In this document: piece after piece, positions 15,721-23,294 of the stretch
How positions within the stretch are numbered: position 1 is the stretch's first letter
Layout of the letters: each line of letters starts with the position of its first letter
Assembly: GCF_000238275.3 (NCBI RefSeq)
Contig: NZ_AHCF03000004.1
Location: 496,001-560,000 of the forward strand
Origin: Pseudoalteromonas undina
GTDB taxonomy: Bacteria; Pseudomonadota; Gammaproteobacteria; Enterobacterales; Alteromonadaceae
DNA: 64,000 nt
Direction of reading: 5' to 3'
Notes under the pieces: generated by a model
Told to the model about the DNA's origin: nothing
The model's input: the letters and a program-made list of their open reading frames with translations, nothing else
The model's database searches: none
Program-made: the position numbers and the translations under genes

Positions 15721-16821
15721 TTAATAACGTTCTATTGACCATTGCAGAGCGATTAGAGCAATCAAGATTGAACCTGAAGGCATTAACCACTTTTGATACC
15801 AATTATAGTTTCTTAGGTAAATAAGTATTGGTAAACTGAGACACAAAATACTCAGTTGACCCAATTCAACACCGAGGTTAAAAGCAATAATACTTAGCAG
15901 CTGGTAGTCTTCTGACAAGCCTAGTTCACCGAGGACACTTGCAAATCCCATCCCATGAAGTAATCCAAAACCAAAAGTAAGCCAGCCTAAACGTATTACG
16001 ACGGGCCAAACATTATTAAGTGCTGCAAACAATACTGACACTGCAATTCCTAATTCTACCCAGCGACTATTTGGGGAGACAAGGTTCATAGCTGTGGCTG
16101 TAAGCGTAATAGAGTGTGCCAGTGTGAACGCGGTGACTATCCATGCAGTGTGTTTTATGATTTTTATTTTAGAGCTACTTCTTTGCCATGTTTTATCTCG
16201 TCTTACCAACACGCAAGTAAGTAACAATACAATTAAAAATAAAATATGGTCTATACCAATCCAAATATGTAACACGCCTTGGTAAACATATTGATTGAAG
16301 GTTTCTAGGTAGCTTGTTTGTTCAAAATTAAATGCTTGTTTTTGGTTATGATAGTCAAATACACGCGACACACCGTTGATGTTAACGATAGATTTATGGC
16401 TAGCATCGCGGTTAAAAAAAGCTGAGTATGTAAGTAAGGTTGTAGTGTTATTATCGCAATAAAAGCGAATAGGAATTTGCAAATAAGGTTGATTAAAGTG
16501 AGTATCGAGCTTAAACGGGCCTTCATTATTTAAAAGGCAGGCTTTTAAGTCTTGGGTAAAACTTATGTTTTGTTCAACAAATTGAGTAAGTGAGCTACGT
16601 TTTGCTTTTATTTCGGCCCATGTAATTTGCCCATCGTTGTTTAAATCAAGTGCTACTGCATGTTCCAAGTCAGCGATACTGATTTGCCAGTGACCAATAT
16701 ATTGCGTTTTATCTATATTGTTATTTAACACGATATAACTGGTACTTAACTGGTGTGCAAAGCCATTGTTTGTAAAAGCGAACAAACATAAAGCGAAAAA
16801 ACATAGATAAGTTGATCTCAT
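15721..16821 (-). CDS. EF-hand/HupE-UreJ-like membrane protein
   Basis: 366 residues: signal peptide (1-22, ending GFAHQ), a periplasmic N-terminal domain, then six or so TM segments from about residue 180. The membrane part (LHIWIGIDHILFLIVLLL, then FGFGLLHGMGFASVLGELGL) matches the HupE/UreJ family, members of which are proposed metal (nickel/cobalt) permeases. Residues 59-70 form a canonical EF-hand calcium loop, D-x-N-x-D-G-x-I-x-x-x-E. The last gene of the DUF4331 operon; its ATG overlaps the stop of the TPR gene (ATGA). The transported substrate, if any, is unknown. Confidence 0.8.
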   Translation of the reverse strand: MRSTYLCFFALCLFAFTNNGFAHQLSTSYIVLNNNIDKTQYIGHWQISIADLEHAVALDLNNDGQITWAEIKAKRSSLTQFVEQNISFTQDLKACLLNNEGPFKLDTHFNQPYLQIPIRFYCDNNTTTLLTYSAFFNRDASHKSIVNINGVSRVFDYHNQKQAFNFEQTSYLETFNQYVYQGVLHIWIGIDHILFLIVLLLTCVLVRRDKTWQRSSSKIKIIKHTAWIVTAFTLAHSITLTATAMNLVSPNSRWVELGIAVSVLFAALNNVWPVVIRLGWLTFGFGLLHGMGFASVLGELGLSEDYQLLSIIAFNLGVELGQLSILCLSLPILIYLRNYNWYQKWLMPSGSILIALIALQWSIERY

Positions 16822-17843
16822 AGCTTACCTCGTGGCATAGCTTGTGCATCTTTAAGTAACTGCTGATCCATACTCATCTTTGCTTGTTGCCAATTAATGT
16901 TTGCCCAGTACAATGCTTTGTCGGGGTTTGGCTGAATATTAATGTAATATTTAGCTAGATCACTGGCGTGGAAAGTATCTTGGCGAATTTCGCGTAAAGA
17001 GACTCTTTCAGCCATCATTTTTTGCCATTTTTGCCCGTGTGTTTTTAGATCTTTTTCTGCAATAGCTAGCCTAAGCAACAGCGCATCCTCTAAATTAGTA
17101 TTATCGTCAATCAATGCGCTTAGGCTGTTAATAATATGCTCAGAGTTATTAAGTCTAAGCTGAATATCAGCCCATAAAACAACAAGGCTCACAGGCATAT
17201 TCGATAATTTTATATGATTAATATGAGAGAGTGCTTTTTTATAGTGACCCATTCGGTAACTCATTTCACTTAACACATGCTTGGTTGCAAGATTTGTTTC
17301 TTTGTTATCAACTATTTTTAATAGCGATTGATAGCTTTGTTGAACATTTTTGTGTTGGCTTTGTATATCAAGCACACAGGTACTTGCAGTGAGGGTACTT
17401 ACCAAACCAATTAAAGATATACAGTGTTTTGTTGCTGCTTCAAAACGCCCTTGCGTCATAAAAATATTTGCTAGTAGTAAATGGCTATTAACATGGTTAG
17501 GATCGTCATCTATTGCCTCTTTTGCAATATTTATGGTTTGCTCGAATAAATGTTCTTTTTGTAATATACGTGCATACAGATAGCTTACTTCTGAAGTGGG
17601 GTTTTCCTGATATAGCTTTACCAAATGTGTTTTAAGGACCCCTTGTAACCGCTCAGATTGGCCTGAGAATTGACTGTTGTCGAGTAAGTTCTTTATCTCT
17701 TCAACAGAAAGAGATGCTTTTAATTTAGTGTTACTAGTTGCAATAACTGCATCATCCTTTGGTACAAAAGGTGCGCCTTGTAGAGTGAGCGGCATTAAAA
17801 AGACAGCGATAAAAGTGAATGGCAAATATAAAGGTAAGTGCAT
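16818..17843 (-). CDS. periplasmic TPR-repeat protein
   Basis: 341 residues with an N-terminal signal peptide (hydrophobic 5-22, likely cleaved after LQGA). TPR-like helical repeats run from about residue 75 to 215: SEVSYLYARILQKEHLFEQ, NHVNSHLLLANIFMTQGRFEAA, KHVLSEMSYRMGHYKKA. Such repeats form protein-binding scaffolds; the partner is not evident but is probably among the operon's envelope proteins. An AGGAG SD sequence precedes the ATG. The gap to the cadherin-like gene is 46 bp and the 3' end overlaps the HupE-like gene by 4 bp. Confidence 0.75.
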   Translation of the reverse strand: MHLPLYLPFTFIAVFLMPLTLQGAPFVPKDDAVIATSNTKLKASLSVEEIKNLLDNSQFSGQSERLQGVLKTHLVKLYQENPTSEVSYLYARILQKEHLFEQTINIAKEAIDDDPNHVNSHLLLANIFMTQGRFEAATKHCISLIGLVSTLTASTCVLDIQSQHKNVQQSYQSLLKIVDNKETNLATKHVLSEMSYRMGHYKKALSHINHIKLSNMPVSLVVLWADIQLRLNNSEHIINSLSALIDDNTNLEDALLLRLAIAEKDLKTHGQKWQKMMAERVSLREIRQDTFHASDLAKYYINIQPNPDKALYWANINWQQAKMSMDQQLLKDAQAMPRGKL

Positions 17844-17889
17844 TATTTTCTCCTAAAAGTTAGCCTTCCTTGGCTAGTCAGTTGATTGA

Positions 17890-18399
17890 TTAATTTCCGT
17901 TTGCTGAAATCAGATCACCAACATCAGTATCTGTATTGGTAAATACTCTACCATTCACAGACAATGGCTCAGCCGTAGGCTGTTGATTTAAAGCATCCGT
18001 GGCAAACTGTGCAAATTCAACTTGCAACGCTTCAATAGTGATGCTCACAGTGGCGTTTACTTGTGAACTTATGCCATCGCTTACGCCAAACATAAAGCTG
18101 TCTGTACCTGTTGTCTCTTTATTAGGGGTGTAAGTAAAACTACCATCGCTATTTACTTCAACAACACCTAACGTAGGCTCACTTGATAGTGAGTAACTTA
18201 ATGTGTCGCCATCTATATCAGTGGCTCTGAGCATATCAGAGATACTGACCTCTGTTTGAGTGGTGAGTATTACATCACTTGCTGAGGGCGCAGAGTTGGT
18301 TATAGTTGGTGATTTATTTTTGTCGTCATCGTTACTGCATGCTGCCATAATCAGGCTTACAGATAGTATACAGACATGACGTAAATTTAGATTATGCAT
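17890..18399 (-). CDS. cadherin/VCBS-type lipoprotein
   Basis: 169 residues. Lipobox-like SLIMAAC gives a lipidated Cys near 21, then an Asp-rich linker and one cadherin-like (VCBS/Big) beta-sandwich at about 37-125. The signature is ATDIDGDTLSYSLSSEPTLG, SDGSFTYTPN and DSFMFGVSDG, with the usual calcium-binding acidic residues. The C-terminal 45 residues are not assignable. It starts 11 bp after the DUF4331 gene, so is cotranscribed and possibly forms a surface complex with it. Role unknown beyond an envelope-exposed adhesion or assembly module. Confidence 0.75.
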   Translation of the reverse strand: MHNLNLRHVCILSVSLIMAACSNDDDKNKSPTITNSAPSASDVILTTQTEVSISDMLRATDIDGDTLSYSLSSEPTLGVVEVNSDGSFTYTPNKETTGTDSFMFGVSDGISSQVNATVSITIEALQVEFAQFATDALNQQPTAEPLSVNGRVFTNTDTDVGDLISANGN

Positions 18400-18410
18400 T
18401 AGTTCACTCC

Positions 18411-20003
18411 TTATTTAGAGCCTGCAAGCGGCGTTGCAAGGTAAGGGAATGTGGCATTCATCATTGATGCATTAACAGGTGCGCCATCAGTAAATGGCAC
18501 AGTGCCTACGTTTGCATCTTCTGGAGTACACAGCCCTAAATCAGTATCTGTACCTGCAACGGGGATAGGGTGGCACAAACGCCCCATTACAACTCGTAGC
18601 GCAATATCTACAACATCATCACCAGGGCGTCGTCCATTCGGGAAACCAGCTAAGTCGTCACCTGCAACGCCAAATGCTGATTGGTCGGCCTGCGCAGTCG
18701 CTGCAATAGCGGTATTTAGACGCAGCATTTCTGAAGGTGTTACCGTTGCTTGTTGGTTTACCCCTGCAAAGCCTGTCAAAAATGCAGTAATTAAATCTGT
18801 GCGTGGAAAATTAGTGGGCGCAAGAGTCTCTAGGCTAGCACCTAGTGTTGTATTAACCGCATCTTTAAATAAGATATTCAGAAGCTCGGGTAAAGAGGGG
18901 TGTGATACATAATCTAAAAATTGTCCATCGTCTTTAGGGTGAGATGTTGAGAATGTATCTTTATCTTTAATGCCAATTACAAGCTCATTGACTAGCGGGT
19001 TACCTAATCGAGAAACCTGAGTCAATGCCCCTCCATTAACCGCATTATTTGCAAATTTTGCATTAGGGTTAAGCACGCGAGCTTGAGGTAAACTAGCTGT
19101 TGTCCACGAACCAATGACTTGATTACCTTCGCCTACAATGCAGGCTTTTGGTACTTCAATAGCTATTGACGTAACATTTTTGTCTGCGAGATCATCATTA
19201 TCGGCTGATTGGGTTATACCGCCTGGGAAACCTCCACCATCGGCTGCCCCTGGCGAGCTGTCACCTTCAACTGGAACATAATTAACTAAATCAAAAGTTT
19301 TACCTAAGTTAACTACAAATGGGTCTTTACGTTGACCGACAAAAACTCTCGCCATGCCTTCACAGTCGGGTATGGCAACTTGATAGACAAACTGATCAGC
19401 ATAGGCTTGATATTCTGTCATCGATCCAAAGGTTTTATTACCTACATAATCAAGTGGTTTAGAGAACGAGCTAGAGTTTGTAGTGGTATTATTTAGGGTT
19501 GTGGTAGTGCCAGTTCGTTGTGGTCCGCTGATCATGGTCATACTGTAGGACTCGCTAAAGTTTACAGCAGCGTCATTACCTGCAGAGATGCCGCCAACAT
19601 TTTTAAGAGGTACTGAAACGGTCCGCTGATTACCCTCTGGTCCTACAGTCAGTTGTACCCCTTGATTATCATTTGGCAGCATACTTTCAAAGTTAAACGC
19701 AAATGTAATATCTTCTATAGCGTCTCCATCATTGTCAATGTGGATGCTATAAGTAGCATCAGGGTCCATTGCAAAGTAATTTGGGCCACCATAAGCATCT
19801 TGTAAAGGAATGTAGTTTGCGATGAGGGTTACGTAATCGCCTCGGCCTTGCTCATAACTATTAAATATATAAAAATCGGTAGAGTCTAAAGTTGGGAAGC
19901 GGCTTATATTTGGTGCTTCTCTATGGCTAGATGCTTCACTTGGTGCACTTATAAATGTACTGCATACCATTACTGCAAGTATTGATGGAGTAAAAGCTTT
20001 CAT
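18411..20003 (-). CDS. DUF4331 family secreted protein
   Basis: 530 residues with a signal peptide (ILAVMVCSTFISAPSEAS). The mature start SSHREAPNISRFPTLDSTDF is the hallmark of DUF4331 (SHREAP, then DxTDFYIF), followed by IANYIPLQDAYGGPNYFAMD. The function of this family is not established. The N-terminal half is acidic and the C-terminal half includes FPNGRRPGDDVVDIALRVVM, also typical of the family. It is the first gene of a four-gene minus-strand operon, with an ECF-type promoter motif 39-73 nt before its ATG that matches the one before the sigma gene. Confidence 0.88.
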   Translation of the reverse strand: MKAFTPSILAVMVCSTFISAPSEASSHREAPNISRFPTLDSTDFYIFNSYEQGRGDYVTLIANYIPLQDAYGGPNYFAMDPDATYSIHIDNDGDAIEDITFAFNFESMLPNDNQGVQLTVGPEGNQRTVSVPLKNVGGISAGNDAAVNFSESYSMTMISGPQRTGTTTTLNNTTTNSSSFSKPLDYVGNKTFGSMTEYQAYADQFVYQVAIPDCEGMARVFVGQRKDPFVVNLGKTFDLVNYVPVEGDSSPGAADGGGFPGGITQSADNDDLADKNVTSIAIEVPKACIVGEGNQVIGSWTTASLPQARVLNPNAKFANNAVNGGALTQVSRLGNPLVNELVIGIKDKDTFSTSHPKDDGQFLDYVSHPSLPELLNILFKDAVNTTLGASLETLAPTNFPRTDLITAFLTGFAGVNQQATVTPSEMLRLNTAIAATAQADQSAFGVAGDDLAGFPNGRRPGDDVVDIALRVVMGRLCHPIPVAGTDTDLGLCTPEDANVGTVPFTDGAPVNASMMNATFPYLATPLAGSK

Positions 20004-20041
20004 GACTTTGTCCTTTAGTTTTGTTTGAAGTCATAGCTAAT

Positions 20042-20076
20042 AACGGACAGGATAGTTAAGTGGATGCAAAAAAGTT
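20042..20076 (-). promoter_or_regulatory. Predicted ECF-sigma promoter of the DUF4331 operon
   Basis: On the minus strand, AACTTTTTTGCATC (20076-20063), then 17 nt, then CGTT (20045-20042). The same AACTTTTT-GCATC-N17-CGTT arrangement precedes the ECF sigma gene. A -35-like GCATC and a -10-like CGTT fit ECF-type promoters in general. The CGTT lies 39 nt before the DUF4331 ATG. The site is inferred by comparing only these two upstream regions. Confidence 0.72.
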
Positions 20077-20104
20077 AAAAGTATTTATTTTTTGTTACTT
20101 TTTA

Positions 20105-20134
20105 TGCTGATCGCTTGAAGTAAAGCGACCAGCA
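20105..20134 (-). repeat. Hairpin between anti-sigma and DUF4331 genes
   Basis: TGCTGATCGCTT and AAGCGACCAGCA form a 12-bp stem with one A-C mismatch and a 6-nt loop, 6 bp after the anti-sigma stop. No T-run follows on the minus strand, so it may weaken rather than end read-through, or protect the 3' end of the mRNA. Confidence 0.6.
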
Positions 20135-20139
20135 TCAGT

Positions 20140-20823
20140 TTATAAAAGTACTAATTCTGTGGTGTATAGTACCTCAGTAGGTAAACCATTCGGTGAACCG
20201 CCAACGGGTTCTAAACTAACCGCTAATAATGTTATGTCGGTTGCTTTAAATAGTTTACTTTTGAGAATAGTTTTATCGCCATTTTTGGGTAATAAACCAA
20301 GGGAGACAGGTGTATCTTGCCCTTTAAGTATCATCCACAGTTCGTAGTCTCTATCTGTTCGCGCTATTAGTTGGTTACTCGCTTTAATAGAGAGCTCATG
20401 GTTACTTACATTTATAAACCACAACGGTTGCTCAGTTTGATTTTTTACTAAAGCTATTTGTTGTGTCTGCTTACTGTTGGTAGTAGCTTGAGTAACTAAA
20501 ACAGCTAAAATAATACATGCGGCGGTCGCTAAAAATGACCATGCACGCCAAATAGAAGGTTTTATTATTAGCTGTGATTTTTCTAATTGTGGTTTATGTT
20601 CGATACGCCGCATTATCTCATGCCATGTGGCATCTGATGGTGTTTGTGGGCTAATAGCACTCGCTAGGTTATTAAGATTTTGCTCCCATATATTGGTCGC
20701 TTCTCTCGCTTTATTTGAAACTAGCATGAGTCGCTGAAAACGTTTACGCGCCAAGCCGGTTAATGTGCCAAGTACATACTCTGCAGCAAGCGAGTTAAGT
20801 AATTCTGGTTTGTTATAGTTCAT
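20140..20823 (-). CDS. RskA-like membrane anti-sigma factor
   Basis: About 227 residues. The N-terminal cytoplasmic part (ELLNSLAAEYVLGTLTGLARKRFQRLM, ending in a W-x-x-x-L segment) resembles the anti-sigma helical domain of the ChrR/RskA type. One TM segment follows (WSFLATAACIILAVLVTQA, about 95-113), then a periplasmic RskA domain with YELWMILKGQDTPVSLGLLP. The ATG at 20823 overlaps the sigma stop (ATGA) and is preferred over an upstream GTG at 20835. Expected to hold the ECF sigma inactive until a periplasmic signal; the signal is unknown. Confidence 0.88.
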   Translation of the reverse strand: MNYNKPELLNSLAAEYVLGTLTGLARKRFQRLMLVSNKAREATNIWEQNLNNLASAISPQTPSDATWHEIMRRIEHKPQLEKSQLIIKPSIWRAWSFLATAACIILAVLVTQATTNSKQTQQIALVKNQTEQPLWFINVSNHELSIKASNQLIARTDRDYELWMILKGQDTPVSLGLLPKNGDKTILKSKLFKATDITLLAVSLEPVGGSPNGLPTEVLYTTELVLL

Positions 20824-21344
20824 ATTGTTAAACACCTTTGTAACTGTACTAAACCTCTGCGAATCCAGCTTTTAACTGTTCCTAATGGTGTGTCAATATG
20901 ATTCACGAGTTCTCTATGGCTTAACCCTTTGTAGTAGGCAAGGTGGATAGCATGCTTTTGTTGTGGTTCTAGTTGTTCGATACAGTCGACTAATTTAGTG
21001 TTTTCATCATAATTGACATCAACGGTGTGAGTATCTTGTTGATCCTCAGCTAAAGGTTCTTCCTTACGGACTTTATAATACCTGAGTAGATCAAGGCTTC
21101 TGTAGCGAATAATACTAATCATCCAGCTTATTACAGTTCCTTTGGAGGCGTTATACTCAGACGCATTATGCCAAACTTTAATAAACGCATCTTGTAGTGC
21201 TTCTTCAGCATGAGCTCTGTTAGACAACATATTAAAACTAATTGCAAAGAGTTTGCCGCTCGTTTTCTGATATAAACGTGAAAAAGCATGTTTGTCTCCT
21301 TGTGCTGTTGCACACAGCAAAGAAAGTAATTCGTTATTTTCCAT
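20820..21344 (-). CDS. ECF-family RNA polymerase sigma factor (SigK-like)
   Basis: 174 residues. Region 2 is ISFNMLSNRAHAEEALQDAF then IKVWHNASEY and a WMISIIRYRSLDLLR segment; region 4 is ECF type: LEPQQKHAIHLAYYKGLSHR, ELVNHIDTPLGTVKSWIRRG. No region 1 or 3, as expected for ECF sigmas. Translationally coupled to the RskA-like anti-sigma. Its own upstream region has the same GCATC-N17-CGTT motif as the DUF4331 operon, implying autoregulation and a local regulon. The stress or ligand it reports is unknown. Confidence 0.93.
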   Translation of the reverse strand: MENNELLSLLCATAQGDKHAFSRLYQKTSGKLFAISFNMLSNRAHAEEALQDAFIKVWHNASEYNASKGTVISWMISIIRYRSLDLLRYYKVRKEEPLAEDQQDTHTVDVNYDENTKLVDCIEQLEPQQKHAIHLAYYKGLSHRELVNHIDTPLGTVKSWIRRGLVQLQRCLTI

Positions 21345-21665
21345 AATTATCCTATTTTTTATTATTAGTATTAGAACGAGTAAACACGATATTTAGATGC
21401 AAAAAGTTGAAAATTAAAATTTATCAAAATTTTTTATATAGATAGCAATCAAAGAGCATAGTATGCTTTTATCATACTGTGAATAATTTATTCGATGAGA
21501 TGTAAAAACTGCATACCATGTTAATCTTTCTTATGTTGATTTAACTTAGAACTATCGATGCAGAGCAGGTAGCTAGCTAAGTTACTACCTAAGTTTACTA
21601 ATGGCATAATGATTGCTGGATATGATGATCATTTAAAAGTGTAACACCAATAAAAAGGAAAAATT
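21345..21665. other. Intergenic region between the ECF sigma and phosphatase/kinase genes
   Basis: 321 bp of AT-rich divergent spacer. Its left part has the ECF-type promoter described separately. The right part should contain the promoter of the plus-strand fusion gene, but I see no confident boxes; AAAAGGA just before 21666 is its ribosome site. No small ORF or RNA gene recognised. Confidence 0.5.
21375..21408 (-). promoter_or_regulatory. Predicted autoregulatory ECF promoter of the sigma gene
   Basis: On the minus strand, AACTTTTTGCATC (21408-21396), a 17-nt spacer and CGTT (21378-21375), 31 nt before the sigma ATG. It shares the flank, both boxes and exact spacing with the site before the DUF4331 gene, while the spacers are unrelated, which argues for selection rather than duplication. 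Confidence 0.72.
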
Positions 21666-23294
21666 ATGTGGGCTGCAGTAAGTTATCTTGTAACAGCATT
21701 GGTATTTATAGTATTGGGATTAACGGTTAACTCCATTTACTTTGCAGTTGCGTTTTTTTGGACCGCACTTTCGCTACTATTAGTCAGCGGCGCTTATTTT
21801 TTCAACGCAGGGAAAGTATTTAGAAAACGCGAAAATGGCGTTATCCCTTTTTACATTCGCTGGGCCTTTGTGCCTTTTTTATTAGGTGCGCAAATTTATA
21901 ATGCGTGGTCACGTAAGCGTGACAAAGTACCGCCTATTCAGCAAATAAATGATAACCTATTTTTAGCATGTCGTTTATTCCCCTCTGATATAGACACATT
22001 GAAAGAAAATGGCATTACCGCTATTTTGGACGTTACCTGTGAATTTGATGGCCTTGAATGGACATCTACCCAAGAAAATATCGATTATTTAAATATTCCT
22101 GTTCTTGATCACAGTGTGCCTACACACTCACAGTTAAACCAAGCCATTAACTGGATACATCATCATATTAAAAAAGACCGTCGTGTTGTGGTGCATTGTG
22201 CATTAGGGCGTGGACGCTCGGTGTTTGTTATGGCGGCATATTTATTGAGTCAAAATAAAGATGCGGATGTGCATGATATTCTTGCACAAATAAAAGAAAC
22301 ACGTGAAACTGCGAACCTTAACAAACGCCAATTACGCCATTTAGTTAAGCGCCACCGTAAGGGGGAGCTACTGATAAAAAACAAAGCGTACTTAATTGCT
22401 AATCCGGTTTCAGGCACTAAGTTGTGGTCTGAAAAAGAGCATTTAATTGTTGCGCGTTTATCTGCGTATTACGATTTAACCATTTTAAAAACTACGCCAG
22501 AACAAAATGGCATTACATTGGCTAAACAGGCTATAGAAAGCCACCCCGATATTATTATTGCTTGTGGTGGCGATGGAACTGTAACTGAGGTTGCCAGTGT
22601 GTTGATAGGTACTTCTTGTCGATTAGGAATAATACCACTGGGCACAGCAAATGCACTCGCTCATGTATTAATGGGGATAAAATCTAAATTTATTCCTGTT
22701 GAGCAAGCATGTGATTTAATCATTGATGGTCAAGCTAACCTTATTGATACCGCGTATTGTAATGATGAGCTGATGCTATTATTAATTGGTATTGGCTTTG
22801 AGCATGCAATGATTGAAAAAGCGGATCGAGAGTCTAAAAATAAATCAGGTCAACTTGCTTATTTAAATGGTTTTTTACACTCATTTGGCGAAAATAAAGC
22901 GCAACAGCTAATAGTTAAATTAGATGATAATGAGCCTGAGACTATTAATACAAATAGTTTTATTGTGGCAAATGCTGCGCCATTTACTACGTTATTAGCA
23001 CAAGGGGGCGGGCAACCCGATCACCGCGATGGGTTATTGGATGTAAATTGGTTAACGCCAAACAAAGATAATGAAACCACGGTATTAAGTATTGCTGAGC
23101 TGATGTTTAGCAGTATTACGCAAACGCATCTTGCTATTAACTCGCATTATACCAATGCAAAACGTGTAGAAATAAGCGCAGGTGAAACGCTAAATTACGT
23201 GATTGATGGCGAGGTTAAATCTGCAGATAAAGTGGTGGTGAGCATTAACCCTGCGTCGTTAAATGTAATATGCCAAGAGCAAACACCTGATTAG
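21666..23294 (+). CDS. dual-specificity phosphatase / diacylglycerol kinase fusion protein
   Basis: 542 residues. Two TM segments at the N-terminus (about 5-25 and 28-48), then a DSP-type phosphatase domain (about 90-235) with the full active-site CX5R: His177-Cys178-A-L-G-R-G-Arg184-Ser185. The C-terminal half (about 240-540) is a DAGK catalytic domain: IANPVSGTK, IIACGGDGTVTEVAS (GGDGT 301-305) and LGIIPLGTANALA. The kinase family phosphorylates lipids such as diacylglycerol or sphingoid bases; which lipid, and what the phosphatase acts on, is unknown. An AAGGA SD sequence supports the start. Confidence 0.88.
   Translation: MWAAVSYLVTALVFIVLGLTVNSIYFAVAFFWTALSLLLVSGAYFFNAGKVFRKRENGVIPFYIRWAFVPFLLGAQIYNAWSRKRDKVPPIQQINDNLFLACRLFPSDIDTLKENGITAILDVTCEFDGLEWTSTQENIDYLNIPVLDHSVPTHSQLNQAINWIHHHIKKDRRVVVHCALGRGRSVFVMAAYLLSQNKDADVHDILAQIKETRETANLNKRQLRHLVKRHRKGELLIKNKAYLIANPVSGTKLWSEKEHLIVARLSAYYDLTILKTTPEQNGITLAKQAIESHPDIIIACGGDGTVTEVASVLIGTSCRLGIIPLGTANALAHVLMGIKSKFIPVEQACDLIIDGQANLIDTAYCNDELMLLLIGIGFEHAMIEKADRESKNKSGQLAYLNGFLHSFGENKAQQLIVKLDDNEPETINTNSFIVANAAPFTTLLAQGGGQPDHRDGLLDVNWLTPNKDNETTVLSIAELMFSSITQTHLAINSHYTNAKRVEISAGETLNYVIDGEVKSADKVVVSINPASLNVICQEQTPD

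Follow-up and report, generated by a model that had tools for sequence, protein, structure and literature searches.

A SigK-like sigma/anti-sigma pair and a conserved DUF4331–anglerase operon share a promoter motif in Pseudoalteromonas undina: a candidate transition-metal pathway

Introduction

A window of 64,000 nucleotides from the 4.03 Mb genome of Pseudoalteromonas undina (C4:496001-560000) carries a six-gene cluster in which the genes for an extracytoplasmic function (ECF) sigma factor and its anti-sigma factor stand before an operon encoding a DUF4331 protein, a small lipoprotein, a secreted tetratricopeptide repeat (TPR) protein and a HupE-type membrane protein. The cluster is found across many marine bacteria, and it is a real, conserved, sigma-linked unit with a small predicted regulon. 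On balance, we favour the view that the sigma pair, the operon and an unlinked gene for a TonB-dependent receptor, joined by one promoter motif, form a switchable pathway for the capture and import of a transition metal, probably copper. The mechanism is anchored by one structural match, that of a predicted model to a domain with measured copper and nickel binding.

DUF4331 is a large, widespread family without known function, for which a job is proposed here for the first time. The family gains a predicted regulated pathway, a partner class (the anglerases) and a promoter motif that makes the idea testable, and a metal-type predicted regulon is added to the SigK/RskA group.

The six-gene cluster and its conservation

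All six genes, those of the sigma pair included, lie on the minus strand, and Pfam profile scores support the families that a first-pass annotation of the window had assigned to them. The features are as follows.

20820-21344, minus: ECF sigma factor, SigK-like, 174 residues, with C121 and C171 (Pfam Sigma70_r2 and Sigma70_r4_2)
20140-20823, minus: RskA-type anti-sigma factor (RskA_C, PF10099, 68.2 bits against a cut-off of 29.4)
18411-20003, minus: DUF4331 protein, 530 residues, with signal peptide (PF14224, 516.5 bits)
17890-18399, minus: small lipoprotein, 169 residues (Big_9/Cadherin_5; lipobox MAAC read by eye)
16818-17843, minus: secreted TPR protein, 341 residues (TPR_19 and ANAPC3 above cut-off)
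15721-16821, minus: Ang-1-HupE/UreJ-2 ('anglerase') membrane protein, 366 residues (HupE_UreJ_2, PF13795, 152.2 bits)
16318-16755, minus: Ang-1-like extracytoplasmic domain of the HupE protein, residues 23-168, His23 being the predicted first mature residue
21375-21402, minus: predicted promoter of the sigma gene, TTGCATCTA-N15-CGTT, 30 nt 5' of the start codon
20042-20069, minus: predicted promoter of the DUF4331 operon, TTGCATCCA-N15-CGTT, 38 nt 5' of the start codon
19923-19931, minus: Ser-Ser-His, predicted mature N-terminus of DUF4331 (putative NH2-X-X-His Cu(II)/Ni(II) chelate; from SSHRE conservation)

The ATGA overlap that had been reported for this locus, in which the stop codon of the sigma gene meets the start codon of the anti-sigma gene, is present at 20820-20823, and a second ATGA overlap joins the TPR and HupE genes (16818-16821). 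The anti-sigma start was taken as the ATG at 20823, the mechanical call being a longer open reading frame (ORF) from a GTG at 20835.

The DUF4331 family profile is matched above cut-off over its full length (1-421), and at least 7,999 relatives were scored by protein search. Among the matches listed, those closest to the window protein (about 90%) are from Pseudoalteromonas, where the same genes are also carried on second replicons of roughly 800 kb. The best 80 loci among the DUF4331 matches listed were compared as an 80-locus set, whose genera include Pseudoalteromonas, Alteromonas, Paraglaciecola, Colwellia, Shewanella, Rheinheimera, Arsukibacterium, Kangiella, Gilvimarinus, Photobacterium and Idiomarina. 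A DUF4331 ORF call is present in 78 of the 80 (L184 and L192 were dropped); many of the loci are congeneric, so that counts from the set are not independent.

Sigma, anti-sigma and DUF4331 genes are co-linear in 57 of the 78 loci and divergent in three; the lipoprotein gene then follows in 64, the TPR gene in 67 and the HupE gene in 55, and all six occur together in 37. Contigs that end early, short ORFs that were missed and true differences all lower these counts. Such an arrangement lies well outside what chance would give, and the co-conservation in other genomes that had been put forward as a check on the cluster is thus found. In a wider sample of the order (295 genomes, 99 genera), DUF4331 is sporadic, occurring in 26 genomes (two only as fragments) and 12 genera; where it is present, the six-gene order mostly persists and the flanks vary.

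Photobacterium halotolerans has the sigma/anti-sigma pair placed after HupE. A smaller core of DUF4331, TPR and HupE genes is found in Marinobacter and on a Comamonadaceae plasmid, the latter with weak TPR matches, and the same three slots occur in Lichenicola, where the middle gene has no Pfam TPR match. Only DUF4331 and TPR genes are found in Miltoncostaea and in Adhaeribacter, the latter with a divergent TonB receptor gene; a TPR gene follows DUF4331 in Actinomycetota and Bacteroidota also. On plasmids of Paracoccus, Sulfitobacter and Jannaschia (L196, L201 and L213), DUF4331 has no adjoining TPR or HupE gene; there, DUF4331 and a small protein adjoin a type II secretion cluster, which is consistent with secretion of DUF4331 outside the cell.

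The promoter motif and the predicted regulon

By eye, the two upstream regions of the cluster share the motif TTTTTGCATC[C/T]A...CGTT, with 17 bases from GCATC to CGTT. The exact pattern TTTGCATC-N17-CGTT has three matches in the P. undina genome, two of which lie 5' of the sigma and DUF4331 genes. The spacing is the decisive control for the motif. Upstream of DUF4331 (76 loci, L145 and L190 being excluded for having less than 150 nt upstream), GCATC-N17-CGT occurs in 56, N18 in three and N13 in one, while none of the 17 remaining spacings between 8 and 27 is found; this stricter count missed motifs inside the called 5' part of the ORF in several loci (e.g. L117, L118). Upstream of sigma, the N17 spacing is present in 42 of 66 loci, and every other spacing, counted over these 66 and L190, in at most one.

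A stricter pattern searched genome-wide gave 32 matches in 26 genomes, against seven for the reversed-pattern control. Thirteen of these are at DUF4331, seven at a sigma/anti-sigma pair (the one in G292 being judged from the anti-sigma ORF only, and one in G272 lying at a second sigma copy) and two at the receptor. The remaining ten have no sigma, DUF4331 or receptor gene. Three of these ten are followed by genes of other kinds, namely those for a lipoprotein with collagen and NHL repeats and a penicillinase-repressor-type regulator (both G090) and a primase-like gene (G208). As matches elsewhere are close to the control (10 against 7), the predicted regulon is one of few genes.

The presence of the motif also follows that of the anti-sigma factor. 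Among nine Kangiella genomes with DUF4331, three retain the sigma/anti-sigma pair and the motif; the other six have no genome-wide anti-sigma match and no motif 5' of DUF4331, the sigma gene itself not having been searched for genome-wide. Across order-sample genomes with a readable locus (L073, L083 and L084, whose DUF4331 ORF is incomplete, being excluded), the motif stands 5' of DUF4331 in 16 of 16 with an anti-sigma match and in none of six without, a looser match in L078 (N18, CGAG) at -396 not being counted as a motif; these six are all of one genus and are therefore not independent. A promoter link between the sigma pair and the operon is very probable.

In G090, the motif lies about 80 nt 5' of the collagen/NHL gene (L217:5047-7278), which encodes a 707-residue lipoprotein and is a possible extra member of the regulon, and about 76 nt 5' of the penicillinase-repressor-type gene, which is divergent from a TonB receptor gene (L218:5623-6164). 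G272 (L077; C11:42000-57000) carries a second, more divergent DUF4331 copy and a second sigma gene, with the motif 5' of both, which suggests that the regulon is duplicated in this genome.

The sigma/anti-sigma pair

The sigma factor matches PF04542 and PF08281 (regions 2 and 4) above cut-off. Its nearest solved relative is Mycobacterium tuberculosis SigK (4nqw, E 1.3e-23), with both cysteines aligned; of 68 sigma sequences in the alignment, 66 keep C121 and 65 keep C171. In PMC7509140, the equivalents of SigK C133 and C183 are given for 94% of ECF18, 56% of ECF19 and less than 2% elsewhere. The NCBIfam SigK subfamily cut-off is not reached (PRK09646, 137.1 against 226 bits), and two other sigma models score higher (151.9 and 142.7 bits), still below their own cut-offs; the protein is therefore termed SigK-like rather than SigK. 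The anti-sigma factor falls just below the cut-off of NF052375 (94.8 against 100) and is assigned to the RskA type on its RskA_C domain and the coupling of its gene to the sigma gene.

The pair thus resembles SigK-RskA, which PMC7509140 places in ECF18/ECF19, in Mycobacterium and Yersinia, in its nearest solved structure, its cysteine pair and its adjacent RskA_C anti-sigma gene. It differs in its predicted targets, here the DUF4331 operon and a TonB receptor, whereas the SigK targets given there are eleven genes including mpt70 and mpt83; the signal that induces SigK/RskA is described there as still unknown. With FecI/FecR cell-surface signalling it has in common an ECF sigma, an anti-sigma and a TonB receptor in one predicted regulon, but the anti-sigma here matches RskA_C and not FecR. 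No signalling domain was found in the two receptors scanned (one partial), which gave Plug and barrel-type matches only.

Predicted N-terminal metal sites

The first-pass annotation had taken calcium as a theme of the locus. The calcium-type motifs stand in part: the HupE protein has an EF-hand-like loop, DLNNDGQITWAE, that is mostly conserved among relatives, and a loop of the type D-x-D-G-D-A-x-E-D is conserved in DUF4331, but the cadherin match is to a generic bacterial Ig/cadherin-like domain. Instead, the striking common feature is a metal-chelating sequence at the predicted mature N-terminus of two of the proteins.

In DUF4331, this N-terminus is SSHREAP. SSHRE is invariant in 53 of 53 sequences (30 from the window and the 80-locus set, 23 relatives found with a Miltoncostaea query), and the residue before it is Ala in 77 of 78 and Ser in one. 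A mature NH2-Ser-Ser-His would chelate Cu(II) or Ni(II) as a site of the amino-terminal Cu(II)- and Ni(II)-binding (ATCUN) type.

In the HupE protein, His23 is invariant in 36 of 36 sequences. A strict pattern of Ala or Ser before the His is found in 43 of 47 full-length proteins, the misses being three with Pro or Gly at -1 and one with another residue after His; signal-peptide cleavage was judged by eye. The AlphaFold2 model (predicted local distance difference test, pLDDT, 88.9) has 9gce as the best PDB match of its Ang domain. With a transmembrane domain, a His after the predicted signal peptide and a modelled Ang-1 fold, the protein is assigned to the Anglerase-1-HupE/UreJ-2 class. Rhizobium HupE, a nickel permease, belongs to the same HupE/UreJ membrane family, the HX5DH motif presumably being common to both; the protein here differs in its extra Ang domain and in a genome without a hydrogenase or urease match.

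RbAng-1a (PDB 9GCE; PMC12537917) has the same N-terminal His, the same beta-sandwich, in which helices lie between strands 2 and 3, and the same HupE_UreJ_2 permease; it is published to bind copper and nickel, and Ang-1 to prefer copper. The system had been thought unnamed, which needs tempering: its HupE protein fits the anglerase class described in 2025, though DUF4331 is absent from the main text of that paper. There, a single protein is covered and anglerase neighbours are mostly of unknown function; here the anglerase gene is the last of an operon, after DUF4331, lipoprotein and TPR genes, behind a sigma pair and linked to a receptor.

Some Rheinheimera and Arsukibacterium loci (L166:11217-11729 and similar) have in the HupE slot an Ang-like domain without permease, followed by a TonB receptor gene. 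Such an Ang-only slot gene is a natural split of the anglerase; the one protein tested gave a weak DUF6702 match, below cut-off.

The TonB-dependent receptor

The cluster had also been described as self-contained. This is not supported, as the promoter motif also precedes an unlinked gene for a TonB-dependent receptor, which in other genomes stands with the operon. In P. undina, the match at C3:1355640 lies 47 nt 5' of the gene for this receptor, a protein of 671 residues with a His-rich plug. The same receptor family is encoded directly after the HupE-slot gene in 16 of the 78 loci; 12 of these slot genes have a HupE match and four were assigned by position, and all 16 have an Ala-His-x-x-Ser-Thr start. 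In three Alteromonas loci, the receptor gene lies upstream of sigma with its own motif in each. The receptor is present in 24 of the 295 order genomes and in 10 of the 26 with DUF4331, a co-occurrence above chance (Fisher p 4e-6) that relatedness confounds.

In 12 regions outside a DUF4331 context, the neighbours of the receptor include a DUF6702 metal-binding protein (G273) and a cobalamin/CbtA cluster (G152, which has no DUF4331 match); it adjoins a penicillinase-repressor-type regulator in G194, as it does in the DUF4331 carrier G090. No metal-related neighbour was recognised in the rest of the 12. The receptor neighbours suggest metals in general, without singling out any one of them.

A model of the pathway and its alternatives

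The gene order, the common motif and its co-loss with the anti-sigma factor, the receptor linkage, the N-terminal conservation and the Ang fold match are observed. From these we infer the cleavage sites, the binding of the motif by sigma, the identity of the metal, the direction of its transport and the signal, as well as what DUF4331, the TPR protein and the lipoprotein do. An extracytoplasmic or redox signal would cause the RskA-type anti-sigma to free the SigK-like sigma. The freed sigma would then drive transcription of the sigma operon, the DUF4331 operon and the receptor gene, in each case from a TTGCATC[C/T]A-N15-CGTW promoter. Metal, as such or in a complex, would cross the outer membrane through the receptor. 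It would be bound by DUF4331, through its predicted Ser-Ser-His N-terminus, and by the Ang domain with its N-terminal His; the TPR protein and the lipoprotein may act as scaffolds, and the HupE/UreJ-2 permease would pass the metal inward. Metal handling, the better half of what had been guessed for this locus, is likely, and import is the somewhat favoured direction.

Several findings weigh against this pathway. Once a single mismatch is tolerated, the motif does not rise above background (43 matches in the P. undina genome, 37 for the reversed control), so that the regulon is not readable from the motif alone. Across the 76 loci, motif and sigma are weakly associated (53 of 66 with sigma, five of 10 without, CGG being accepted for CGT in two loci; Fisher p 0.05), partly because a sigma gene beyond the 8 kb flank or the contig is invisible. 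The receptor is not universal, being absent from 16 of the 26 DUF4331 genomes, and 14 of its 24 genomes lack DUF4331; within the family to which P. undina belongs, the two overlap in six of 24, about four being expected, which is not above chance. The motif is 5' of the receptor gene in only three of seven order genomes with DUF4331, receptor and anti-sigma, one at -203. At least 13 loci of the 80-locus set have a short slot gene with no permease domain. The DUF4331 model (pLDDT 82.5, with a low-confidence N-terminus) has no confident PDB fold match, and Adhaeribacter (Bacteroidota) has SSHREAP without a preceding signal-peptidase site; a chelating DUF4331 N-terminus is thus not universal, and SSHREAP must also have another role.

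The HupE/UreJ and NicO families are known as nickel/cobalt permeases, G172 has urease genes some 2 kb from the end of its operon, three Shewanella carriers have a NiFe-hydrogenase, and a receptor of the family sits in the cobalamin/CbtA cluster of G152, all of which would suit a nickel or cobalt uptake regulon serving nickel enzymes or cobalamin. In G172, ureG- and ureF-like genes were seen by eye about 2 kb past the HupE gene (L063:13632-14964), with urease alpha nearby. Against such a regulon, the P. undina genome has no match for urease alpha, nickel superoxide dismutase (Ni-SOD), NiFe-hydrogenase or CbiC, other nickel and cobalt enzymes not having been searched for; clients are few in the 26 genomes (urease in three, a partial Ni-SOD in one, NiFe-hydrogenase in four, one of them weak), and CbiC is in none of the 24 DUF4331 carriers searched. 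Ang-1, moreover, prefers copper as published. Nickel or cobalt uptake is accordingly improbable, and copper, with no known nickel or cobalt client in the P. undina genome and the preference of Ang-1, is the best single guess, though a tentative one.

The same want of the four client markers would fit a defence system that sequesters or exports excess copper or nickel in the envelope and is induced when metal or oxidants stress the cell. Exporters occur in NicO and related families, ECF/anti-sigma pairs often respond to excess metal or oxidants, and the SigK-type cysteine pair is kept in the sigma factor. TonB receptors, however, are importers by family, and here one has the motif and stands directly after the slot gene in other genomes; besides it, no further gene was seen to recur in the operon, though most flanking genes are known by length and strand only and an efflux partner may yet be among them. 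Defence is considered unlikely. Very improbable is a general response to envelope stress or calcium, with targets that are envelope proteins by coincidence: the extracytoplasmic domain of the RskA-type anti-sigma and the EF-hand-like loop of the HupE protein would agree with it, but exact motif matches away from sigma, DUF4331 and receptor genes are near the control, and the features in common are metal-type N-termini and permeases.

A doubtful elaboration of the capture and import pathway would make DUF4331 a secreted protein metallophore, its mature Ser-Ser-His chelating extracellular Cu(II) or Ni(II) and docking on the co-regulated TonB receptor, with the metal passing via the N-terminal-His Ang domain to HupE or NicO. 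If true, this would be protein-based metal acquisition spanning Pseudomonadota and Actinomycetota.

Neighbouring genes

In Streptomyces, the DUF4331-TPR-NicO genes have downstream of them a gene with a fasciclin domain (L198:11295-11948); the mycobacterial SigK targets include MPT70 and MPT83, which are of the fasciclin type. In the window, the gene beside sigma (21666-23294) encodes a dual-specificity phosphatase domain fused to a diacylglycerol-kinase/YegS-like domain.

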